Assembly (NCBI RefSeq): GCF_035974275.1
Contig: NZ_CP142422.1
Coordinates: 4,464,001 to 4,528,000, forward strand
Length of the DNA: 64,000 bases
Direction: 5' to 3'
DNA from: Chryseobacterium sp. MYb264
GTDB taxonomy: Bacteria; Bacteroidota; Bacteroidia; Flavobacteriales; Weeksellaceae
Each line of letters begins with the position of its first letter. Within the stretch, counting starts at the first letter, position 1. Shown in pieces: positions 850-12,280 of this stretch. Made by a program: the position numbers and the translations under genes. A model generated the notes under the pieces. The model made no database searches. It was not told where the DNA came from and was given only the letters and a program-made list of their open reading frames with translations.

Positions 850-1773
850 TTGTTTAAACGATGTTTATAATTAAACAGTTATACATGTTAGGCGATATAG
901 ATCAATGATTTTCAGACGGCACAACAACACGTACCTTATTATGAAAATAAAGAAAAATTAGAATTATGATATATTTTAGTCAGTATATTATATAATACAG
1001 GATATATGAAATATCCAAAAGAACTTATCCTACAAACAGCATTTCGATCCTATCGGTATCGTAGCGATCATCTTTTTATTTTTATCTTGTAAAACTTCAT
1101 ATTTCCAAACTTTTCCCCATAAGTCTGAATAATATTATTGCCTATTAAAGCTCTCTCATGTATTCTTATATAATTTAGTTGTTAATTTTTCCTTTGTACT
1201 GCGTCTATACAGCGATTTATTATTTCCAGTCAAGAATTAATTGATAAAAATTAAGCAACATTTGTTCTTCAAATATAGAAAATACAAATTAATTGTGACG
1301 AAAAAATAATTAAAAAATATCGTTAAAATTTAGTTTGCATTTAAAATTATACCATAAACTAACGGTTACGTGAAATATTATAAGGTTGAAATGGCTGTAA
1401 AATCGATGGTGCTGCTTCAGTTATAAAGTTGGTAAGATGACTGTTTTCAGGATACGGTTATGACCCCATACCTAAAGATATCATGGTGGCCGATTCCGAT
1501 TATTATTGAGAAGTATGGATATAAAAGCTAACCGGTATTTTAAGATGTTAGCAATTGTTTATTTCAGTTCTTGATCTTTTATTTTTTTGATGGTTCTTAA
1601 AAAATGCTGTCCATTTCTTATTGAAGTCTTCCCTTCTTCCGCTTCAAAATATTAAAATAACTAAAGAATGAATCCAATAAAATCTAGACATGTTCTTAAA
1701 AACAAAATAGGCACATCATCAGGACACTGATGTAATTTTAAGACGCTAACCGTATTGTATCCGTTAAAGTCTT
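850..1773. other. Gene-free AT-rich stretch of about 0.9 kb
   Basis: No convincing ORF, RNA gene or terminator is visible. Around 1450-1510 a short in-frame segment translates as GYGYDPIPKDIMVADSDYY before a stop. It looks more coding-like than its surroundings and may be the remnant of a decayed gene. The rest is AT-rich with many stops in all frames. Confidence 0.4.
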
Positions 1774-1781
1774 TACCTTTG
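1755..1781 (+). promoter_or_regulatory. Bacteroidetes-type promoter of the SulP gene
   Basis: TTG at 1755-1757, a 16-bp spacer, then TACCTTTG at 1774-1781, matching the Bacteroidetes -33/-7 pattern (TTG and TAnnTTTG). The start codon follows 16 bp downstream, giving a very short 5' leader. Confidence 0.65.
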
Positions 1782-1797
1782 TATTTCATTTTGTCAC

Positions 1798-3324
1798 ATG
1801 AAACTATTTGAATTTTCACATAAAATAAATTATAAAAACGAATTGTTGGCAGGGCTTACCGTCGCAATGACCATGATCCCCGAATCTCTGTCTTTTGCTA
1901 TTCTTGCGGGCCTTTCTCCACTCACAGGACTTTATGCCGCCTTTATAATGGGGCTGGTAACCGCAGTTTTCGGGGGACGACCCGGAATGGTTTCCGGGGG
2001 GGCAGGAGCCACGATTGTAGTTCTGATCGCTCTAATTAAAACCCACGGAATAGAGTATCTCTTCGCTACTGTTGTGCTCGCCGGGATTTTTCAGATGCTG
2101 GTTGGTATTTTCAAACTCGGAAAATTCGTGCGATTAATTCCTCAGCCTGTTATGTATGGTTTTTTAAATGGTCTGGCAGTCATTATTTTTATGGCACAGG
2201 TAGAACAGTTTAAGGTTATTGATGCAAGTGGGGCGGCCAGCTGGCTACAGGGGACTTCTTTATATATAATGTCCGGATTGGTGGCGTTAACGATTGCCAT
2301 TGTTTATTTTTTTCCTAAAATAACGAAAGTTGTTCCGGCTTCTTTAGTCGCTATTTTAATCGTTTTCGGAATCGTTTTCGGTTTTGGAATTAATACAAAA
2401 ACAGTTGCAGACATTGCTCACATTAGCGGAAGTTTACCAAGTTTTCATATTCCAAGTATTCCTTTTTCAGTGGAAACTTTACAAATTATCTTCCCTTATG
2501 CTTTAATTATGGCTGGTGTCGGTTTAATAGAGTCACTATTAACATTATCTATGGTCGATGAAATCACAAATTCAAAAGGAAATGCCAACAAAGAATCTGT
2601 CGCTCAGGGCTTAGCTAATATTACTAACGGTTTCTTTGGCGGAATGGGAGGTTGTGCGATGGTAGCCCAAACTTTGGTTAACCTAAATGCAGGTTCAAGA
2701 GCCAGACTTTCCGGAATTATCGCATCAATTACCATTTTAATTATCATTTTGGTCGGAGCTCCATTTATCGAAAGAATTCCGATGGCGGCTTTGGTTGGGG
2801 TAATGATGATGGTTGCCATCAGTACTTTTCAGTGGGTGTCTATCAGAATTGTCAACAAAATGCCGAAATCCGATATTTTTGTTGGAATCACAGTAGCTTT
2901 GATTACTATTGTTCTTCACAATTTAGCGTTGGCAGTTTTGGTTGGAGTTATTATTTCAGCTTTAGTTTTTGCGTGGGATAATGCGAAAAGAATTCGTGCA
3001 AGGAAGCACATTGACGAAAATGGTGTTAAACATTACGAAATTCTCGGACCATTATTCTTCGGTTCTGTTACAACATTTACAGATAAATTTGATCCCGAAA
3101 ATGATCCAAACGAAGTGGTCATCGATTTCAAAGAAAGTCGAATTGTAGATATGAGCGCCATCGATGCATTAGACAAACTATCAAAAAAATACAGTCAGCT
3201 CAATAAAAAACTTCATTTAAAACATTTAAGCGAAGACTGCATTAGAATGCTGAAAAATGCCGAAGCTGTAATCGAAGTCAATATCCAGGAAGACCCGACG
3301 TATAAAGTAATGCCCGAAAGGTAG
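1798..3324 (+). CDS. SulP family inorganic anion transporter
   Basis: Protein of 508 aa with 10-12 hydrophobic segments covering about residues 15-390 and a C-terminal cytoplasmic STAS domain (about 400-500: VVIDFKESRIVDMSAIDALDK). The N-terminal region AGLTVAMTMIPESLSFAILA, with the conserved PxS/A-type motif, is typical of SulP/SLC26 carriers, which move sulfate, bicarbonate or other anions across the inner membrane. Substrate cannot be told from sequence. It is a single-gene unit with its own promoter. Base composition shifts inside the gene: the first 400 bp are GC-richer than the rest, which may be chance. Confidence 0.9.
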   Translation: MKLFEFSHKINYKNELLAGLTVAMTMIPESLSFAILAGLSPLTGLYAAFIMGLVTAVFGGRPGMVSGGAGATIVVLIALIKTHGIEYLFATVVLAGIFQMLVGIFKLGKFVRLIPQPVMYGFLNGLAVIIFMAQVEQFKVIDASGAASWLQGTSLYIMSGLVALTIAIVYFFPKITKVVPASLVAILIVFGIVFGFGINTKTVADIAHISGSLPSFHIPSIPFSVETLQIIFPYALIMAGVGLIESLLTLSMVDEITNSKGNANKESVAQGLANITNGFFGGMGGCAMVAQTLVNLNAGSRARLSGIIASITILIIILVGAPFIERIPMAALVGVMMMVAISTFQWVSIRIVNKMPKSDIFVGITVALITIVLHNLALAVLVGVIISALVFAWDNAKRIRARKHIDENGVKHYEILGPLFFGSVTTFTDKFDPENDPNEVVIDFKESRIVDMSAIDALDKLSKKYSQLNKKLHLKHLSEDCIRMLKNAEAVIEVNIQEDPTYKVMPER

Positions 3325-3523: not shown

Positions 3524-3562
3524 ACAAGGACTGCAAAATAAAATTTACAGCCCTCGTTTTTT
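3524..3562. terminator. Shared terminator between the convergent SulP and EF-G-like genes
   Basis: Arms ACAAGGACTG (3524-3533) and CAGCCCTCGT (3548-3557) pair with two mismatches. Six T follow on the plus strand. The gene on the minus strand ends next to it at 3561, so it probably serves both. Confidence 0.5.
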
Positions 3563-5627
3563 AGGTTATTAGCGTATTGGCAATGAAATCAGGTACCAAA
3601 GCATAGTGTGACAACTTCATGCTGATCGAAGCTCTACCGCTCGTCAACGTTCTCAGATCCGAAATATATCCGAAAGTAGAAGCCAAAGGAACTTCCGCCG
3701 TGAAGATTTTTCTCCCTGATTTTTCATCAATCGAAGTGATAATTCCTCTTCGTTTGTTGATATCGGCGGTCACAACTCCCGTGTATTCTTCAATACTTTG
3801 AATTTCAACCTGCATAATCGGTTCCAATAATTTCGGTTTGCAACTTTTTGCAACCGCTCTGAAACCATCTCTTGCAGCCATTTCAAAATCATAAGCTCCG
3901 GAATCTTCAGAGTGAGTCGAGCCATCCAGAAGGGTAACTTTCATACTTTCCAAAGGGTTTCCACTCAAAGCTCCGTTTTCCATCGCTTCTCTGAAACCTT
4001 TTTCAACAGATGGAATATATTCACTCGGAACAACTCCTCCTTTGATTTGATTAATGAATTCTAAACCAATTCCAAGATCATTTCTAGGTCCGATTTCAAA
4101 AGTAATGTCCGCAAATTGTCCGCTTCCACCATTTTGTTTCACTAGTTTTTCTCTGTGAATTTTGGTTTCCGTTAAAATTTCCTTGTACGAAACTTTAGGT
4201 TTTCCCTGATTGATTTCAATTCCGTGATTCAATCGGATCTTTTCTAATGTCACTTCAAGATGCAATTCTCCTAAACCACTCAACAAAGTTTCTCCCGTTT
4301 GCCGGTCTCTTTCCACGAATAACGACGGATCTTCTTCCTGAATTTTCGCCAAAACCAATCCGAAAGATTTTTCATCGGCATTCGTTTTCGGTTCAATTGA
4401 AACTCTGATAACCGGAGCCGGAATCGTAATAGATTCAAGCAAAACAGATTGTTCGATACTCGATAAAGAATCGCCTGTTTTTGCATCTTTTATTCCCGTT
4501 AAAGCAACGATATCTCCCGCTTTTCCTTCTTCAATCGTTAAGGTTTTGTCCGATTGCATCTGCAAAATTCTCGAAATCCTGAAATTTTCACCTGTTCTTA
4601 CATTCTGAATCGTGTCGCCTGATTTTATCTTTCCGGAATAAATTCTCAACATCGAAAGTTTACCCATATGTTTATCGATTACCACTTTGAAAACCAATCC
4701 TGAAAAAGTTTCTTTTTCATTCCTTTCTATTTCGATGGTTTCTTCCGTTTTCGCATCTTTTCCTTTAATAGAAGATAATTGATTCGGAGATGGAAGATAA
4801 TTAACGATGGCATCAAGCAAAGGTTGAACGCCTTTATTCTTGAAAGCAGAACCACATAAAACAGGAACTAAACTTCTTACCTGACAAGTTCTTTGGATGG
4901 CTTTAAAAATCATTTCCTCAGAAATTTCGTTTTCAGAACTCATGAATTTTTCAAAGAAAATTTCATCATATTCTGCTAATGTTTCCATTAATTTTAATCT
5001 GAATTCATCAGCTTCAGCTTGATAATTTTCAGGAATTTCCTTCTCGATAATGATTTCTCCGTTTTCGTCAATCCAATACAAAGCTTTTTGTCTGATTAAA
5101 TCAATAACGCCTTCAAATCGATCTTCAGAACCGATTGGAATTTGCAAAGCCAAAGGAACCGCATTCAATTTAGTTTTAATTTCATTCAAAACAGCAAAGA
5201 AATCGGCTCCGATTCTGTCCATTTTATTAATGAAACAAATCTTTGAAATTCCATGTTTCTCAGCTTGGAACCAGACGTTTTCCGTTTGTGGCTGAACTCC
5301 AGAAGAAGCGCAGAAAACCGCGACAACGCTGTCCAAAACTCGTAAAGAACGTTCAACTTCTACGGCAAAATCAATATGTCCCGGAGTATCAATAATATTG
5401 ATATTGAAAATGTTATCATCCTTTTTCCATTGTGTAGAAATCGCGGCAGATGAAATGGTAATTCCTCGGTTTTTCTCCTGAATGTCTTTATCCATCGTGG
5501 TATTTCCTTCATCTACGTTTCCGATTTTGTGGATCATTCCGGTGTAATAAAGCAATCTTTCCGTTAAAGTCGTTTTTCCTGCATCGACGTGTGCTATAAT
5601 CCCTATATTTCGTGTGTTGTATTTCAT
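3561..5627 (-). CDS. fusA: Elongation factor G family translational GTPase (stand-alone paralogue)
   Basis: Protein of 688 aa from the start at 5627. GTPase motifs are intact: AHVDAGKTT (P-loop), RGITI (switch I), DTPGHIDF, NKMDR and GSAF. Domains II-V follow in normal order and length, ending in a full EF-G C-terminus. An in-frame ATG exists at 5789, but that stretch lies inside the leader and its terminator hairpin. The family alignment starts at MKYNTRNIGIIAHVDAGKTT, so 5627 is chosen. It is not next to rpsL/rpsG, where the housekeeping fusA normally lies, so I infer a second EF-G. All G motifs are kept, unlike the Bacteroides EF-G2 reported to work without GTP hydrolysis. It does not resemble Tet(Q)-type protection proteins closely. 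Expression is probably set by the upstream leader. Confidence 0.85.
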   Translation of the reverse strand: MKYNTRNIGIIAHVDAGKTTLTERLLYYTGMIHKIGNVDEGNTTMDKDIQEKNRGITISSAAISTQWKKDDNIFNINIIDTPGHIDFAVEVERSLRVLDSVVAVFCASSGVQPQTENVWFQAEKHGISKICFINKMDRIGADFFAVLNEIKTKLNAVPLALQIPIGSEDRFEGVIDLIRQKALYWIDENGEIIIEKEIPENYQAEADEFRLKLMETLAEYDEIFFEKFMSSENEISEEMIFKAIQRTCQVRSLVPVLCGSAFKNKGVQPLLDAIVNYLPSPNQLSSIKGKDAKTEETIEIERNEKETFSGLVFKVVIDKHMGKLSMLRIYSGKIKSGDTIQNVRTGENFRISRILQMQSDKTLTIEEGKAGDIVALTGIKDAKTGDSLSSIEQSVLLESITIPAPVIRVSIEPKTNADEKSFGLVLAKIQEEDPSLFVERDRQTGETLLSGLGELHLEVTLEKIRLNHGIEINQGKPKVSYKEILTETKIHREKLVKQNGGSGQFADITFEIGPRNDLGIGLEFINQIKGGVVPSEYIPSVEKGFREAMENGALSGNPLESMKVTLLDGSTHSEDSGAYDFEMAARDGFRAVAKSCKPKLLEPIMQVEIQSIEEYTGVVTADINKRRGIITSIDEKSGRKIFTAEVPLASTFGYISDLRTLTSGRASISMKLSHYALVPDFIANTLIT

Positions 5628-5780
5628 TTTGTTTAATTTAAATTGTTGATTTTTAAGGTGTATTCTGAATTTTAGACACGGAAATTCCTTGTCCTTACGT
5701 TTCGTTTTTGTAAGAAATTGAATTTTATTTTCGTGAAAAATATCAGATAACCTTTTCGAATAATTGAAAAGCTGAAAGTA

Positions 5781-5876
5781 GGGTAGCAAAAAAGACCTAT
5801 CTGAACAGATAGGCCTTCGTTATATTTTTTGTTTTATAAAGGTCGATCGTTATTCAGATAAATATTCAGTGCTACC
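5781..5876 (-). promoter_or_regulatory. Putative transcription attenuator in the EF-G-like gene leader
   Basis: On the minus strand a strong intrinsic terminator (CCTATCTG-TT-CAGATAGG, plus coordinates 5795-5812, then TCTTTTTT) sits between promoter and gene. Two upstream segments can compete with it. TATCTGAA at 5853-5860, the last codons of the leader ORF, is an exact 8-bp complement of the terminator segment at 5797-5804. GGTAGCA at 5870-5876 is an exact complement of TGCTACC at 5781-5787, just past the T run. This is the layout expected for terminator/antiterminator switching driven by ribosome position. Mechanism is inferred. Confidence 0.6.
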
Positions 5877-5936
5877 AAAGTACACAGCTCTGATAGGATG
5901 GCTTAAAGAAATTATATTTATCATTTTTGTTGACAT
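5850..5936 (-). CDS. 28-aa leader peptide upstream of the EF-G-like gene
   Basis: ATG at 5936, stop TAA at 5852-5850, 28 codons. The C-terminal half reads SHPIRAVYFGSTEYLSE. The ORF starts roughly 10-20 nt after a predicted transcription start and ends about 37 nt before an intrinsic terminator, with the real gene 220 nt further on. The order promoter, short ORF, terminator, gene is that of ribosome-mediated attenuation, as known for tet(M) and for many ABC-F resistance genes. The peptide has no run of a single amino acid, so it is more likely a stalling (arrest) peptide or a sensor of slow translation than an amino-acid sensor. I know no named homologue. Confidence 0.55.
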   Translation of the reverse strand: MSTKMINIISLSHPIRAVYFGSTEYLSE

Positions 5937-5956
5937 TGTTGATTGTTAATCGGTTG

Positions 5957-5986
5957 CGAAATTAGAAAAAATATTTTAACAGCAAA
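5957..5986 (-). promoter_or_regulatory. Promoter of the EF-G-like transcription unit
   Basis: On the minus strand TTTG (plus 5983-5986), an 18-bp spacer, then TAATTTCG (5957-5964), one mismatch from TAnnTTTG. Transcription would begin near 5950, just before the leader ORF and well before the terminator. Confidence 0.55.
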
Positions 5987-6064
5987 AACTTTTTTTGATT
6001 TTTTTGAACCACTCTTAAAAATATTAAAAAATCTTAAAAAATTACAGTTTCTCATTAAAAATTC

Positions 6065-6178: not shown

Positions 6179-6847
6179 TTGAAAACAGATATCGACATCC
6201 ACAATCACTCACATTTTTCTTTTGATTTGTGGCTTACTTTAATAAAATCTCACCCTGAATTTAAAGCAAAAAGAGTTGAGCTTTTTTCCTCGTTTTTTAA
6301 TGTGGAAAAACCAATTGATGAAGTTGCGAAAACAGTAAAATATTATGACGATTTGTGTAATGCCATTAATGAAGTAACTGGTGGAAATGTAGACACTTTC
6401 GAAATTTATTTATTGATTTTAAATTCTCTGAATGTAGATATTAAACAATTGAATAGAGATGTTTTAAACGAGTTTTATCAAAAAAGCGAAGATCTTTTTT
6501 TAGAATATAGCCCGGTTGTGATATTTGAAAATATTCATGATTTTTTTGATGAAATTAAAAATCAAGGGAAGACGATAAATATTTTGAGCAATACTGGTTT
6601 TATCAAAGGAAAAACAATGCGTAAATTCCTTATTAATGAGAATCTGGATCAGTACATTGATTTTCATATTTACTCTGATGAGATCAATTGCTCAAAACCA
6701 AATCCTCAGATATTTCAGGCAGTTAAAAATTTAATTAAAAATCAGGATTTAAGTTTAAATCAAATTTTGCACATCGGCGATAATCTGATTGCAGATTACA
6801 AAGGGGCAAAAGACTTTGGTTTTAATGCTCATTTATTAAAACACTAA
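6179..6847 (+). CDS. HAD-like hydrolase of the Ter cluster
   Basis: Protein of 222 aa beginning with a TTG codon. No better start is visible, since an ATG upstream runs into a stop. HAD features: motif I FDLWLTL (D16), motif II ILSNTGF (about 138-144), the motif III lysine region with KPNPQIF (about 176-182), and motif IV HIGDNLIADYKGA (about 199-211). The second motif I aspartate, normally the general acid/base two residues after the nucleophile, is leucine (L18). It is the first gene of a run with a PRTase, two TerD proteins, TelA and TerC. HAD and PRTase partners are known parts of Ter-type stress gene neighbourhoods. Substrate unknown. Confidence 0.8.
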   Translation: MKTDIDIHNHSHFSFDLWLTLIKSHPEFKAKRVELFSSFFNVEKPIDEVAKTVKYYDDLCNAINEVTGGNVDTFEIYLLILNSLNVDIKQLNRDVLNEFYQKSEDLFLEYSPVVIFENIHDFFDEIKNQGKTINILSNTGFIKGKTMRKFLINENLDQYIDFHIYSDEINCSKPNPQIFQAVKNLIKNQDLSLNQILHIGDNLIADYKGAKDFGFNAHLLKH

Positions 6848-6856
6848 CAATAAAAG

Positions 6857-7681
6857 ATGAATAAAAGATATAGTTTACATCACATTCATTCGGCGGATGA
6901 GTTTACATTTTCGCCCGCAGAATATAGTTATTTTAAATACGGAGACAGGTCGTTTGCAGAAAAATTTGCAAAAGAATTGTTTGCCGGTTTTATTGCTTCT
7001 CATGAAAAAATTTTGAACACAGATCAGCAGATCGTTGTGTTGCCAAGTCCTTATATGGCGATTCCGACGGCTTCTAATTTCCTGTGCTTTTACTTTAAAA
7101 AGCATTTGGATTTTTATTTGTTTCAGAAAGGAAAAAAATCAAGCATTTTATCAAAAATCAATAGAAATCATACCTATACAACAGATTACGGAAATCTAAG
7201 CTTTGAAGACCGTAAAAATCTGATTGCCAATGATACTTATTATCTGGATAAGGATTTTCTTAAAGGAAAACTTTGTATTTTTATAGACGATATTAAAATT
7301 ACGGGAAGTCATGAGTTTACAGTGAATAAAATTTTACATGAATATAATGTAGAAGGCGACTTTTTATTCATGTATTATGCTGAACTGATGAATTTTGAAC
7401 TCGATCCTAAGATTGAAAATTTTTTCAATTATTATGCGGTGAAAAACGTGGAGCATATTGCTGAAGTTATGATGAAGCCCAGTTTTGAGTTCAATACAAG
7501 GATTGTAAAATATATTTTAGGTTTAGATTCAGGTAATTTTGATTATCTTACGTCTAAAGTAAAAAAACAACAGATGAACCATTTATTGGAACTGGCAATC
7601 AGTAATAATTACCATCTTATAAAAGAATTTGAAAATAATATAAACACTTTAACGCAAACAGAACTAAATTATGGCTATTAA
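6857..7681 (+). CDS. Phosphoribosyltransferase-like protein of the Ter cluster
   Basis: Protein of 274 aa. The stretch LCIFIDDIKITGSHE (about residues 138-152) fits the PRPP-binding signature (hydrophobic strand, two acidic residues, then TG) of type I phosphoribosyltransferases. The N-terminal part has VVLPSPYMAIPTAS, which could form the pyrophosphate loop region. It lies 9 bp after the HAD gene, and its last 11 bases overlap the next gene, so these are translationally coupled. PRTase-HAD pairs in Ter neighbourhoods have been proposed to make or modify a nucleotide-like product. The product here is unknown. Confidence 0.8.
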   Translation: MNKRYSLHHIHSADEFTFSPAEYSYFKYGDRSFAEKFAKELFAGFIASHEKILNTDQQIVVLPSPYMAIPTASNFLCFYFKKHLDFYLFQKGKKSSILSKINRNHTYTTDYGNLSFEDRKNLIANDTYYLDKDFLKGKLCIFIDDIKITGSHEFTVNKILHEYNVEGDFLFMYYAELMNFELDPKIENFFNYYAVKNVEHIAEVMMKPSFEFNTRIVKYILGLDSGNFDYLTSKVKKQQMNHLLELAISNNYHLIKEFENNINTLTQTELNYGY

Positions 7682-8225
7682 CTTACAGAAAGGACAGAGA
7701 GAAAATATAAATGCACCAAAATTTACGGTTGGACTGGGATGGGATACCAACAATACCTCTACCGGTACAGCTTTCGATCTGGATGCATCTCTATTTTTAT
7801 TGGGAGAAAATAAAAAGTTAATTTCGGATAATCATTTTATTTTTTACAACAATTTGGAGTCTCCGGATAAATCGGTAATTCATACGGGAGATAATCTTAC
7901 GGGAGAAGGAGCAGGTGACGATGAGCAGATAAAAATTGATTTAACTAAAATTGATGCTGCTGTGAAAGAGATTACCGTTGTGGTGACAATTCACGATGCG
8001 GATGCGAGAAGACAAAACTTCGGTCAGGTTAGAAATTCTTTTATCAGAATTTTCAATACAGAGACGAATGAAGAAATATTAAAATATGAATTAGATGAAG
8101 ATTTCTCTATCGAGACTGCGGTGGAGTTCGGAAGAATTTATAACAGAAACGGAGAGTGGAAATTTGAAGCCGTAGGTGCGGGACAGAGAGAAGGCCTGGA
8201 CAAATTTGTATCAATCTATCAATAA
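7671..8225 (+). CDS. terD: TerD family stress/tellurite protein
   Basis: Protein of 184 aa. TerD features: N-terminal MAINLQKGQR, GLGWDTN (21-27), FDLDAS (35-40) and the acidic calcium-binding loop GDNLTGEGAGDDE (73-85). The domain ends with EWKFEAVG, as in TerD, TerE and TerZ. These cytosolic Ca-binding proteins act in tellurite resistance and in phage and stress responses, probably at the membrane with TerC and TelA. The start overlaps the PRTase end by 11 bases. A paralogue with the same first ten residues is at 10449. Confidence 0.93.
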   Translation: MAINLQKGQRENINAPKFTVGLGWDTNNTSTGTAFDLDASLFLLGENKKLISDNHFIFYNNLESPDKSVIHTGDNLTGEGAGDDEQIKIDLTKIDAAVKEITVVVTIHDADARRQNFGQVRNSFIRIFNTETNEEILKYELDEDFSIETAVEFGRIYNRNGEWKFEAVGAGQREGLDKFVSIYQ

Positions 8226-8231
8226 TTTACT

Positions 8232-9401
8232 ATGGACAATCAGGAAAATCAACCTATAGATCCTCTTGGATCAATCGAGCCCCTAAAAACGTTTGAGCCT
8301 ACACCAATGGCTCCTCCTACTCCCGCAACGCCGAGTATGGCACCGGGACCGGTGATAGACAGAGACGGGAATGTACAGTTAACCCAGCTTCAGACAGAAG
8401 AGCGTAAAAAATATGAGGTTCTTGCCGATGCGATCGATGAAACCAATCCGGGATCTATCGTTAACTTCGGAGCAGAGCTTCAGCGAACGTTATCCAATCA
8501 GAGTGACAGTTTCTTAGGGAATGTCCGAAGATCTAATTCCGGGGAAGTCGGGGAATTAATCAATAATCTATTGGTAGAACTCAATTATGTAGATGTCGAG
8601 GAACTCAATCAAAATAAATTCAAAAGTTTTCTAAGCAAATTACCTTTTATGAAAAGTGTAATGACACAGATTGAGAATTTATTTGCCAAATACGATAAAA
8701 TTATCAACAATATTGATCAGATTTCTTACAAAGTAAATGCGGGAATTATTACTTCTACAAAAGATAATGCGGTTTTGCAGACCATTTTTGAAAGTAATAT
8801 CAATGCCATCAAGCAAATTGAGGAACTGGTGATCGTCGGAAACCTGAGAATGGAAAGAGCCGGTGCAGAGCTCACTCACATGGAGGCTAACCCACAGGAA
8901 TTTCAGGATTATCAGATTGCGGATAAGAGAGATTTTATTGCAAGATTAGACAGAAGACTGGCGGATCTTAAAGTTGTGCGTCTGATCATGATGCAGTCGC
9001 TTCCGCAGATCAGGCTTGTTCAGAACAACAACGTTTCGATTGCTGAGAAAGCGCAGACTATTCTAACGACTACTTTACCTCTTTGGAAAAATCAGCTTTC
9101 ATTGGCGGTTGCCATGTACAGACAACAGCAGAATATTGAAATTCAGCAGAAAGTTTCCAGCACAACGGAAGATATTCTCAGAAAGAATGCAGAAAGACTG
9201 GGGCAAAACTCGATCAATGTGGCAAGAGCTAACGAACAGACTATTGTTTCTGTAGAAACATTAAGAGAAACCACTTCAAAGCTGATCAATACTTTAAACG
9301 AAGTGAAACAGATCCAGAAACAAGGAGCAGAAGGAAGAAGAAAGCTGGATCAGGATTTGATGACGCTGGAACACGAACTAAAAGCAAACGTAAGAGGATA
9401 A
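8232..9401 (+). CDS. telA: Toxic anion resistance protein, TelA/KlaA family
   Basis: Protein of 389 aa, 6 bp after terD. A Pro-rich N-terminus (residues 10-45) is followed by a long helical, coiled-coil body. Segments such as LSKLPFMKSVMTQIENLFAK and LTTTLPLWKNQLSLAVAMYR match the TelA family in order and spacing. There are no membrane segments. TelA proteins usually accompany TerD in stress clusters and are thought to be part of a membrane-associated complex. The molecular role is not settled. Confidence 0.9.
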   Translation: MDNQENQPIDPLGSIEPLKTFEPTPMAPPTPATPSMAPGPVIDRDGNVQLTQLQTEERKKYEVLADAIDETNPGSIVNFGAELQRTLSNQSDSFLGNVRRSNSGEVGELINNLLVELNYVDVEELNQNKFKSFLSKLPFMKSVMTQIENLFAKYDKIINNIDQISYKVNAGIITSTKDNAVLQTIFESNINAIKQIEELVIVGNLRMERAGAELTHMEANPQEFQDYQIADKRDFIARLDRRLADLKVVRLIMMQSLPQIRLVQNNNVSIAEKAQTILTTTLPLWKNQLSLAVAMYRQQQNIEIQQKVSSTTEDILRKNAERLGQNSINVARANEQTIVSVETLRETTSKLINTLNEVKQIQKQGAEGRRKLDQDLMTLEHELKANVRG

Positions 9402-9439
9402 TAGCATAGGAAAAGGTGAATGATGATGCGGTAAACATA

Positions 9440-10366
9440 ATGTCCCAAAGCAACAGAAGATTAACAAAGCTTAAACTTCTGGCCAATTTTTTTGAAAATG
9501 TTGATGTAATTTCGATCTATATTAAAACCGATATTATACACAATCTTTTTCAGGAAAACAAGGGATTGGATTACAGTAAACTCGAACTTTTTCACTTGCA
9601 GTATACCGATAGCGTGATCGAACTTCTGACGAAGATAAAAAGACAGAAAGAGAACGATCTATTGGCTATCATTAATGAAATTGATATCAATAACAAGTAC
9701 ATTTCAAGTTTTGAAGATAAACACGATAATAGTTTTGAAACAGACCGCAGGATGTACAGTGGAATTTTTTCGAATCAGCTGAAAAGTCTGTATAAGGATC
9801 TCACGGAAGATAAATTCCGTTTAAATTGGGAAAATGTGCTGTATTTCAATAAAAAATATGCCACAGAATTTTACAGAAATGAAGGGGATGAAGAACCGTT
9901 GAAATCTGCTGCTTTTCCGGCTTACAAATATCTTGATTATGAAATTGAAAGGAAATTGTTGGGCAGGCTCAACATTCAGGATTTTAGAGTGCGTTTTATT
10001 TGCGGATATCTGATTTCTACACATGAATATGAGTTGTTCAGAGTTTTTCAGTCCGATGATCATTTTATTTTTGATGTAGAAGGGAAGAAAATGTATCTGA
10101 TCGATGCAAAAAAGCTTGAAAAACTGGATACTTCACCTAATGAATCGAATCAGACCTCGATTGTAGATCAGCTGAAAAGTAAAAATGAGCAGTTGGAAGA
10201 AAATATCAATCAGAGAAAAAGAATATTGCCGGCGGAGGTAAGTTCTGTTTTGAAAGATTATCTTCAGAATCTTGAAAATATTGATATCATGAGTACAATT
10301 TTTGACATCAATGAAGAAACAAATATCCTTCGTGCGATGCTGAATTTAAATTTAAATAACAATTAA
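9440..10366 (+). CDS. Uncharacterised Ter-cluster protein, coiled coil near C-terminus
   Basis: 308 aa from ATG 9440. An in-frame GTG at 9416 would add eight residues, but GTG starts are uncommon here, so 9440 is preferred. I recognise no enzyme motif, signal peptide or membrane segment. The protein is helical and charged, with a probable coiled coil around SIVDQLKSKNEQLEENINQR (about 240-260). It sits between telA and the second terD gene in the same direction, so it is very likely part of the same system, perhaps a scaffold or partner of TelA. Confidence 0.75.
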   Translation: MSQSNRRLTKLKLLANFFENVDVISIYIKTDIIHNLFQENKGLDYSKLELFHLQYTDSVIELLTKIKRQKENDLLAIINEIDINNKYISSFEDKHDNSFETDRRMYSGIFSNQLKSLYKDLTEDKFRLNWENVLYFNKKYATEFYRNEGDEEPLKSAAFPAYKYLDYEIERKLLGRLNIQDFRVRFICGYLISTHEYELFRVFQSDDHFIFDVEGKKMYLIDAKKLEKLDTSPNESNQTSIVDQLKSKNEQLEENINQRKRILPAEVSSVLKDYLQNLENIDIMSTIFDINEETNILRAMLNLNLNNN

Positions 10367-10367
10367 A

Positions 10368-10422
10368 AGCAAAGAATGGTGAAAACCGTAATATGAGAAA
10401 ACAAAAATTCTCTTTCTTTGCT
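10368..10422 (+). repeat. Inverted repeat between Ter-cluster genes
   Basis: AGCAAAGAA (10368-10376) and its exact complement TTCTTTGCT (10414-10422) flank a 37-nt loop in the 82-bp gap before the second terD. It could form an intercistronic RNA stem. No T run follows, so it is not a clear terminator. Confidence 0.4.
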
Positions 10423-10448
10423 GAAAAGTAATAATTAAACATAAAAAG

Positions 10449-11060
10449 ATGGCTATTAATTTACAAAAAGGTCAAAGAATTAACCTGACGAAGGAAAATG
10501 GGGCAACACTTACCCAGGCTTGTGTAGGAATCAACTGGGGAGCAATTGAAAAAAAAGGATTTTTCGGCGGAATCACGAGGGAAGCTGTAGATCTGGATGC
10601 AAGCTGTATTTTATATGATGCCAACAGAAACGCTACAGAAGTCATTTATTTCGGAAATCTGAAATCTAAAAACGGAGCTGTAAAGCATAGTGGTGATGAT
10701 TTAACAGGTGACGTGAATGGGAATGACGGTCTTGACAATGAAGTAATTACTGTAGATTTCAGTAATTTAGATTCAAATGTTGAGCACGTAGCTTTGGTTT
10801 TGAACAGCTATAAAGGTCAGGATTTTGGAACAATTCCTTTCGCTTCAATCAGAATTTATGAAGGAACACCAACGAATGTAAGAGAGGTTTTCGCTAAATA
10901 TGATATTGCTAATGATGCTTCTTTCAGAGGACATGTAGCAATGGTAATGGGTGTTTTCTACAAAAGAAATAATGAATGGAAATTCAACGCGGTAGGAGAC
11001 CCTACAGCAGACAGAAAATTGCAGGAAACCATAGAAACGGTGAAGCAAAAATATTTGTAA
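10449..11060 (+). CDS. TerD family protein (second paralogue)
   Basis: Protein of 203 aa. It starts with the same MAINLQKGQR as the first TerD and carries VDLDAS (47-52), the acidic loop GDDLTGD (82-88) plus a further N/D-rich stretch, and ends the domain with EWKFNAVGDP. An insertion around KKGFFGGITREA (35-46) and the longer calcium loop set it apart, closer to TerZ/TerA-type variants. It is probably a partner of the first TerD. Exact subfamily name uncertain. Confidence 0.9.
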   Translation: MAINLQKGQRINLTKENGATLTQACVGINWGAIEKKGFFGGITREAVDLDASCILYDANRNATEVIYFGNLKSKNGAVKHSGDDLTGDVNGNDGLDNEVITVDFSNLDSNVEHVALVLNSYKGQDFGTIPFASIRIYEGTPTNVREVFAKYDIANDASFRGHVAMVMGVFYKRNNEWKFNAVGDPTADRKLQETIETVKQKYL

Positions 11061-11071
11061 AATTGGTATTC

Positions 11072-11143
11072 AATAAGAACAGGCTTCAGCCCGTTTAATG
11101 AAAAGGTAAGTTTCTAATTCGGCTTTAGCCAAAACTTATTTTA
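11072..11143. repeat. Dispersed repeat with GGCTTTAGCC palindrome (copy 1)
   Basis: AAGAACAGGCTTCAGCCCGTTT near the left end and GGCTTTAGCCAAAACTTATT near the right end, both hairpin-forming. A second copy of the same layout is at 34371-34440. It fills the gap between the second terD gene and terC. Confidence 0.6.
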
Positions 11144-11233
11144 AAATATTGAATTTTAAGACAATAAATTTAAATGGCAATACTTGTACTCGTACAACTA
11201 TTGCTTTTATCATATAAAAAAGCACATTAAAAA

Positions 11234-12280
11234 GTGGACAAACATCAAAGTATTATAGATCTTCATCCAGGGTTGGTGTGGGGATTTGCGGTAACGGTTG
11301 TTATCATGTTACTCCTTGACTTAGGAGTTTTTAACAAAAAAAGTCATGAGGTTTCTTCCAAAGAAGCCACCATCTGGTCAATTGTCTGGATTTCTTTGTC
11401 TATGGTATTTTCCGGAGTCGTTTATTGGGTTTTCAATACCGACGGAACACCGGAAAGTCACAATTTGGCAATTGATAAATTTACGCAATATCAGGCCGCT
11501 TATTGGGTTGAAAAGGCACTTTCAGTGGATAACCTCTTTGTATTTATCTTAGTTTTCGGATTCTTTAAAGTGCCGAAATATCTTCACCATAAGGTGCTTT
11601 TCTGGGGAATTATCGGAGCATTGATTTTCAGAGCAATCTTCATTTTTGCCGGAGTTGGATTAATTAATTTGACTTATTTACCTACAATGAATATTTTCGG
11701 ACAGGCCGTTGATATTAATATTGTTATGGTTCTTTTCGGTTTATTCCTTGTCTATGCCGGGATCAAATCCTGGGGAGACGGTGGCGATGATGAAGATGAA
11801 GATTACAGCAATACTGCCGGCGCTAAACTGATTAAAAGATTCTGGAAAGTTTCTGATAATTATGTTGGAGACAAATTTTTCACCGTTCAGAATGGTATCA
11901 AAATGGCGACTCCGCTTTTGGTGGTTGTGGCGGTTATTGAGTTTACAGACGTATTGTTCGCGGTAGATTCTATTCCGGCGATCTTCGCTATTTCGGATGA
12001 CCCTTTCATTCTTTACACCTCGAATATCTTTGCCATTTTAGGCTTAAGATCCCTGTATTTTCTTTTGGCGAACTTTATTCACATGTTCAGCAAATTGCCT
12101 TACGGATTGGCCATTATCCTGTCATTCATCGGAGTTAAAATGCTGATTGCACCATGGATTCACATTTCATCACCAGTTTCTTTAGGAATTGTAGGTGGAG
12201 TATTGGTAATCTCGGTAATCTTGTCAATCATTTTCCCTGATAAAGAGGATAAAGAGGAGAAAGAGAAAATAGAAGAATAA
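11234..12280 (+). CDS. terC: TerC/Alx family integral membrane protein
   Basis: Protein of 348 aa with a GTG start (no Met until residue 20; the family start fits GTG). Eight or nine membrane segments. Typical TerC motifs: WVEKALSVDNLFVFILVFGF (about 91-110), EFTDVLFAVDSIPAIFAISDDPF (about 236-258) and GLRSLYFLL. The acidic residues inside the membrane (D of SVDN, E and D of EFTD and AVDS) are the proposed metal-binding sites. TerC/Alx proteins bind or export metal ions (Mn in Alx) and interact with TerD and TelA. The acidic loop GGDDEDEDYSN and charged tail DKEDKEEKEK are cytoplasmic. It closes the Ter cluster. Confidence 0.92.
   Translation: MDKHQSIIDLHPGLVWGFAVTVVIMLLLDLGVFNKKSHEVSSKEATIWSIVWISLSMVFSGVVYWVFNTDGTPESHNLAIDKFTQYQAAYWVEKALSVDNLFVFILVFGFFKVPKYLHHKVLFWGIIGALIFRAIFIFAGVGLINLTYLPTMNIFGQAVDINIVMVLFGLFLVYAGIKSWGDGGDDEDEDYSNTAGAKLIKRFWKVSDNYVGDKFFTVQNGIKMATPLLVVVAVIEFTDVLFAVDSIPAIFAISDDPFILYTSNIFAILGLRSLYFLLANFIHMFSKLPYGLAIILSFIGVKMLIAPWIHISSPVSLGIVGGVLVISVILSIIFPDKEDKEEKEKIEE

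Follow-up and report, generated by a model that had tools for sequence, protein, structure and literature searches.

A spare copy of the elongation factor EF-G in Chryseobacterium sp. MYb264 is, quite probably, controlled by a ribosome-mediated transcription attenuator with a new arrest-type leader peptide. The window analysed here is a stretch of 64,000 nucleotides (contig NZ_CP142422.1, positions 4,464,001 to 4,528,000), and every element of the attenuator lies on its minus strand. A sequence-only reading of this DNA had proposed a ribosome-linked attenuator in front of the gene, a proposal which the comparison with related genomes appears to support well, through the open reading frame (ORF), the selection acting on its peptide, the terminator, the alternative pairings and the co-occurrence with EF-G.

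Control by leader peptides is established for drug-resistance, amino-acid and secretion genes, and many bacteria carry extra EF-Gs. The open-access literature searched, with most subscription papers and bioRxiv lying outside it, yielded no account of an EF-G paralogue under leader-peptide control, or of the motif described here. In the excerpts available of an attenuator survey of 2010, EF-G appears once, within the rpsL operon leader (PMC2965389), and those of a flavobacterial transcriptome study describe indications that amino-acid operons are attenuated by leader peptides (PMC9723704).

Layout of the locus

Transcription of the locus would begin at a promoter of the Bacteroidetes type, as the sequence-only reading had claimed: the -7 box TAATTTCG (5957..5964) matches the flavobacterial sigmaA consensus TAnnTTTG, and the -33-like element AGTTTTTGC (5982..5990) provides TTTTTG upstream of it. 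With this consensus box placed at positions -12 to -5, as in the available text of PMC9723704, the transcription start is expected at 5952, about 16 nt 5' of the leader ATG. A motif scan of the region before the leader found a -7 box of the form TAnnTTTG or TAnnTTCG in 68 of 69 loci and the fuller motif, TTG/TTTG and a -7 box at an allowed spacing, in 65 of 69; the box starts 28 nt 5' of the leader ATG in 62 of 72.

Just after this expected start, and at the place given earlier, lies the leader ORF MSTKMINIISLSHPIRAVYFGSTEYLSE (5850..5936), which comprises 28 codons plus a stop and is backed by both sequence and conservation. It is followed by an intrinsic terminator hairpin, GGCCTATCTGTTCAGATAGGTC (5794..5815), and a run of six T (5788..5793). 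The terminator and its six T thus stand as first described; the gap between ORF and hairpin measures 34 nt, not the roughly 40 nt claimed. A spacer of 154 nt (5628..5781), in which the motif scan recognised no promoter, leads to the gene for the EF-G paralogue (3561..5627), a protein of 688 amino acids. Transcripts starting downstream of the terminator had been named as the observation that would speak against an attenuator. Checked by sequence, the interval between terminator and EF-G seems to hold no promoter above chance, as the full motif occurs in 1 of 69 loci (1.2 expected) and the -7 box alone in 10 of 69 (8.5 expected by chance).

A conserved leader peptide

The comparison is based on a scan for EF-G paralogues, in which 83 stretches were reduced to 80 and these to 72 loci, namely 64 from Chryseobacterium, four from other Bacteroidota and four from other phyla; with the window added, the Chryseobacterium loci number 65. 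The 28-codon leader ending in YLSE is present in 65 of these 65 and the leader also in 4 of 4 of the more distant Bacteroidota loci, and a pattern search did not find it in the four loci of other phyla, where the EF-Gs are 39-44% identical. Every scripted search for leaders used a motif pattern that specified core residues, and left free which codon encodes residue 18.

At the level of sequence, the leader peptide is evidently under purifying selection. Among the 65 Chryseobacterium leaders, which comprise 45 distinct DNA sequences and 35 distinct peptides, pN/pS is 0.285 for codons 2-20 and 0.48 for codons 21-28, the latter sitting in the region that takes part in RNA pairing. Across lineages (alignment A2), M1, R16, V18 and G21 never vary, and I8 and I15 hardly do. 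The common core reads N-x-[P/A]-[I/V]-R-[A/T]-V, with S replacing N at its first place in 53 of the 65 Chryseobacterium leaders, and it is retained in lineages whose peptides are 33-52% identical to that of the window, where the putative arrest motif S-H-P-I-R-A-V occupies codons 12-18 (5883..5903). The pair [I/V]-R is present in 72/72 leaders; it was part of the search pattern, which every expected locus satisfied. For residue 18, 72/72 leaders use GTG, out of four possible valine codons and with GTG making up only 17.5% of the valine codons of 58 intact paralogues; as the lineages are related, the 72 leaders are not 72 independent observations.

The sequence-only reading had suspected an arrest sequence at the end of the peptide. 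The comparison favours a candidate arrest sequence there, and moves it to the conserved core N-x-[P/A]-[I/V]-R-[A/T]-V in place of the whole end; the terminal YLSE is probably held by RNA pairing.

Competing RNA structures

The hairpin and its T run were located in 72 of 72 loci, and the terminator hairpin alone folds with a mean of -11.2 kcal/mol (71 loci). In the window, a simple terminator scan reported the hairpin once, on the plus strand, and the minus-strand T run was read straight from the sequence. Of 200 dinucleotide shuffles, one folded as well as or better than the native 165 nt (z -2.73).

Formation of the terminator is excluded by an antiterminator core, which overlaps the leader ORF and joins the region of the leader stop codon to the terminator loop and 3' arm. 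Its 5' arm in the window is ATTTATCTGAATA (5851..5863), starting at codon 25 and taking in two bases of the stop codon, and its 3' arm is TGTTCAGATAGGT (5795..5807), that is, the terminator loop plus 3' arm; both are assigned from fold and covariation. An additional pairing, here called the clamp, joins GGTAGCA in codons 21-23 (5876-5870) to TGCTACC at the end of the T run and immediately beyond it (5788-5782), and the two arms covary. Two exact complementary segments overlapping the ORF, of 8 and 7 bases, had been pointed out before; both are found in the sequence, the first as TATCTGAA in the ORF against TTCAGATA in the terminator loop and 3' arm and the second as the clamp arms, and both are conserved across lineages. 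The segment that starts at codon 21 and finishes with the clamp folds with a mean of -29.8 kcal/mol, and the clamp is part of its MFE structure in every one of the 71 loci. In the window, the antiterminator is the MFE structure even without any ribosome, and in two of the nine loci listed (L021 and L164) the MFE structure keeps the terminator hairpin inside the clamp. Rfam gave no match in the window.

As far as sequence comparison can tell, both pairings survive across lineages by compensatory changes. Such changes, together with conservation of the peptide and of both pairings in related genomes, were what the earlier reading had proposed to look for, and all are found. The partners of the core differ by lineage, with TTCTAAAAA pairing with TTTTTAGAA in Psychroserpens and TCTAAACGA with TCGTTTAGA in L165, one of the loci outside the host family. 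When the arms of the core were swapped among seven lineages, 4 of 5040 permutations (native included) reached the native energy sum of -89.7, the lowest-energy swapped arrangement lying below it at -92.1; when those of the clamp were swapped, 8 of 5040 (native included) reached the native pair count, or 12 of 5040 on Watson-Crick pairs alone, all these tests resting on seven lineages, which are few. For the clamp, loci were aligned by CT[A/G]CC, a motif close to the T run; this choice fixes pairs 1, 2, 4 and 5 by construction and leaves base 3 and base 6 onward as the informative positions. At base 3, 37 of the 71 loci have C:G, the other 34 have T:A and none has a mismatch, a covariation that amounts to two changes on the EF-G tree, one of them on well supported branches; base 6 occurs as C:G, T:G, G:T, T:A and A:T. 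CT[A/G]CC itself closely follows the T run in all but one of the 72 loci; the exception is L169, which is discussed below.

From this anatomy we infer the ON/OFF logic of the switch. A ribosome that translates the leader to its stop would cover the last codons and the stop, the terminator would form and transcription would end before EF-G; because the 5' arm of the core spans codon 25 into the stop, it is this arm that a ribosome at the stop would cover. A ribosome stalled at N-x-[P/A]-[I/V]-R-[A/T]-V would leave the segment from codon 21 to past the stop free, and the freed segment would pair with the terminator loop and 3' arm as the antiterminator, so that polymerase would read through into EF-G. 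The putative stall would most likely place the codon of A/T17 in the P site, with GTG18 occupying the A site; since the clamp opens at codon 21, three codons beyond V18, a gap of 6 nt would then remain in front of it. A distance of 6 nt from the A-site codon is one at which helices can abut the ribosome, as in frameshifting signals. After read-through, the clamp would close the long hairpin. The clamp cannot itself decide between termination and read-through, since the choice has already been made by the time its 3' arm, beyond the T run, is transcribed; it may serve to lock the antiterminator in place or to protect the mRNA. Antitermination would be expected from a leader free of ribosomes as well, and the switch may therefore not be specific to stalling.

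The EF-G paralogue and its distribution

The controlled gene encodes a full EF-G, which scores 832.8 bits against TIGR00484 (EF-G; cut-off 659.4) and carries all Pfam EF-G domains. It is an extra copy, since the host genome has another EF-G, 48% identical to it and taken here as the housekeeping copy. The paralogue stays below the cut-offs both of the tetracycline ribosome protection family NF012153 (367.8 against 775) and of the Bacteroides EF-G2 family NF058620 (423.5 against 1000). At positions 47, 52 and 53 (S. aureus numbering), which we take to lie in switch I, 15/15 comparison EF-Gs are hydrophobic and 64/64 paralogues polar or charged, changes that could alter GTPase behaviour. In 7 of the 65 Chryseobacterium loci (L010, L015, L016, L056, L057, L063 and L076) the EF-G frame is broken and the leader and attenuator are intact; broken frames in draft genomes may be sequencing errors.

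Leader and paralogue occur together. Of 296 genomes of the host family, 84 carry a leader match (profile E < 1e-13), and precisely these 84 carry the EF-G paralogue (at least 81% identity). In each of the 84 the two share contig and strand, the leader starting 219-548 nt 5' of the EF-G match, which is partial in three. No copy of the paralogue was found in the remaining 212 genomes; eight of these lack any EF-G match at the cut-off, so that its absence is less sure there. A further 397 genomes belong to family f3, probably Flavobacteriaceae. Profile matches (E up to 0.02) in 15 of them were all read, and 12 were judged to be chance by frame and context; the three real ones comprise two loci with EF-G (L164 and L165) and one orphan leader (L169).

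Other searches yielded no additional leaders. Among 295 genomes of the class, 21 matches in 20 genomes included the window itself, and none of 11 others that were read is a leader: ten (L180-L189) share a single frame that mimics the leader core (AIRAVLFGS), presumably antisense to ribosomal protein L2 and a trap for short-motif searches, and one (L190) is unlike the leader. Fourteen stretches with weak family matches (E 0.002 to 1), among the matches listed, held no ATG-started short ORF with the motif; of two further stretches fetched alongside these, L132 is a known leader locus and L133 is the region before that genome's other EF-G. The leader DNA occurs only once in the host genome (next best match at E 0.02), and the leader peptide was not found in plasmids.

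The distribution outside Chryseobacterium is patchy, and inside the genus the locus is syntenic. Neighbours of the window locus are shared by 64 of 64 fetched Chryseobacterium loci and by none of the four other Bacteroidota loci; horizontal spread within Chryseobacterium is thus not supported. Beside EF-G lies a divergent cluster (window 6179-12280) with HAD hydrolase, PRTase_3, TerD and TerC proteins, and the HAD and PRTase_3 genes adjoin EF-G in 63 of the 64 other Chryseobacterium loci.

The orphan leader appears to come from a natural deletion. In genome G850, the match to Psychroserpens (L071) runs through the attenuator and picks up again beyond EF-G, where the downstream gene is shared at 88% identity, and the syntenic stretch gave no EF-G match better than E 1.7. 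On the reverse strand of the locus (L169), segments 1466-1633 and 1627-3055 match L071 with an overlap of 7 bases, as after a short-repeat deletion. The leader of G850 stops at the clamp codon (MKRTGIYIIATNRPIRTVFW, then stop), and the clamp motif is gone. This one case is suggestive of a leader that decays once EF-G is lost.

Relation to known systems

Ribosome protection genes of the Tet(M) type are under leader control by a short ORF and a terminator. They resemble the present locus in that an EF-G-like GTPase lies behind these elements, and differ from it in that the paralogue here is a full EF-G which falls below the protection-family cut-off. The other systems compared are described from the excerpts available of the papers cited. 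Drug-inducible attenuators such as that of yxjB in B. subtilis, responding to tylosin (PMC6851288), also combine a short translated leader with a terminator, and stalling prevents termination; here, the target is EF-G and not a methylase, the peptide is another one, and a clamp lies behind the T run. In staphylococci, fusB has a leader peptide before a gene that deals with EF-G function and is said to be inducible by fusidic acid (PMC12190993, PMC12561750). It encodes an EF-G-binding protein whose control is said to be translational, whereas the present locus encodes EF-G itself and would be controlled by transcription termination.

With peptides of the SecM and RAPP type (PMC4737659, PMC10951233), the leader shares I at -6, a small residue or Pro, and then I-R-A. 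It has V18 and Y/F/L19 where G165 and P166 sit in SecM and lacks RAPP, and the absence of G165/P166 implies that it is not a SecM-type peptide; it is, moreover, not linked to secretion genes, and its output would be transcriptional. An extra, conditionally needed EF-G is also known in Bacteroidota from Bacteroides, where EF-G2/fusA2 (BT2167) is, however, of another family and is regulated by BT4338 on carbon limitation (PMC10294740).

What the leader may sense

The cue that arrests the leader may be an antibiotic acting on EF-G or the ribosome, of the fusidane type or other, the paralogue then serving as a drug-tolerant spare EF-G; this we regard as quite possible, if short of probable. One of the catalogued fusidic-acid positions, residue 461 (S. 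aureus numbering), separates the two groups: all 15 comparison EF-Gs have I or L there, and all 64 intact paralogues have T or R. According to the excerpts available, changes at this residue are tied to fusidic-acid resistance in staphylococci, L461K and L461S being included in the catalogue of PMC3993491 and I461T being among the EF-G substitutions of S. pseudintermedius (PMC13295663). V90I occurs in the copies of L071, L072 and G931 and P404L in that of L071, and FusB offers a precedent in being inducible by fusidic acid, probably through translational attenuation, in the text available of PMC12190993. The paralogue is also accessory and repeatedly broken, as a resistance gene might be. Over all catalogued positions, however, there is no enrichment (fixed changes at 9/33 versus 61/292 elsewhere, Fisher p 0.38), on a numbering that is imperfect, as the wild-type letter of the catalogue differs from the S. 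aureus chain at 4 of 45 positions (161, 387, 441 and 449). The main hotspot, H457, is unchanged in 64 of 64 paralogues, the window copy has no exact match to any catalogued substitution, and the plasmid records hold no close copy of the paralogue (86 match, all below 60% identity, the best among the matches listed at 48%). The fusidic-acid signal in the paralogue is therefore limited to residue 461, where it is suggestive.

That the controlled gene is itself an EF-G fits another reading, in which the leader senses EF-G sufficiency: the nascent peptide would make translocation at the motif EF-G-demanding, and a shortage or poisoning of EF-G would lengthen the stall and induce the spare, a loop in which EF-G senses itself. 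All 84 strong leader matches in the 296 family genomes, and two of the three real leaders in the 397 f3 genomes, lie just upstream of EF-G. The core resembles that of SecM (WISQAQGIRAGP) with G/P/A at -1 between the I at -6 and I-R-A, and SecM is reported also to slow translocation, with increased EF-G sampling cited, in the excerpts of PMC4737659. Yet the G165 and P166 that are essential in SecM are missing from the leader, the redetermined SecM structure shows, in the text available of PMC10951233, a different mechanism in which peptide-bond formation is blocked, and a general slow-down should stall ribosomes anywhere; we consider such a sensor rather doubtful. Similarly tentative, and on balance unlikely, is the proposal that the leader reads out working EF-G, with antitermination switching on a structurally distinct, poison-tolerant EF-G whenever the housekeeping copy is short or inhibited. 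If the peptide mattered little, any slowed or absent translation of the leader, through a drug, starvation or poor initiation, would yield the antiterminator, as would suit its being the MFE structure of the window already without a ribosome; the E. coli toiL uORF, for its part, responds to at least five antibiotic classes (excerpts of PMC12121999). The selection on codons 2-20, the motif shared across genera and the fixed GTG18 would not be expected if only the presence of a ribosome counted, and a general translation-stress attenuator of this kind seems to us an improbable, though conceivable, account. The invariance of R16 and V18 (alignment A2), with V18 always GTG, might also suggest amino-acid attenuation through charged tRNA-Arg or tRNA-Val, but cognate codons form no run in the codon table of the 65 leaders, EF-G does not belong to a biosynthetic pathway and the residues flanking R16 and V18 are conserved too, which makes this very improbable.

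Implications

If an arrest-type leader peptide does control the spare EF-G, it would offer a short and tractable reporter of EF-G function or inhibition, extend the short list of natural arrest motifs and suggest why extra EF-Gs are kept. For many Chryseobacterium and a few relatives, the comparison points to a spare EF-G which, if induced by stalling, would be a built-in alarm for trouble in protein synthesis.
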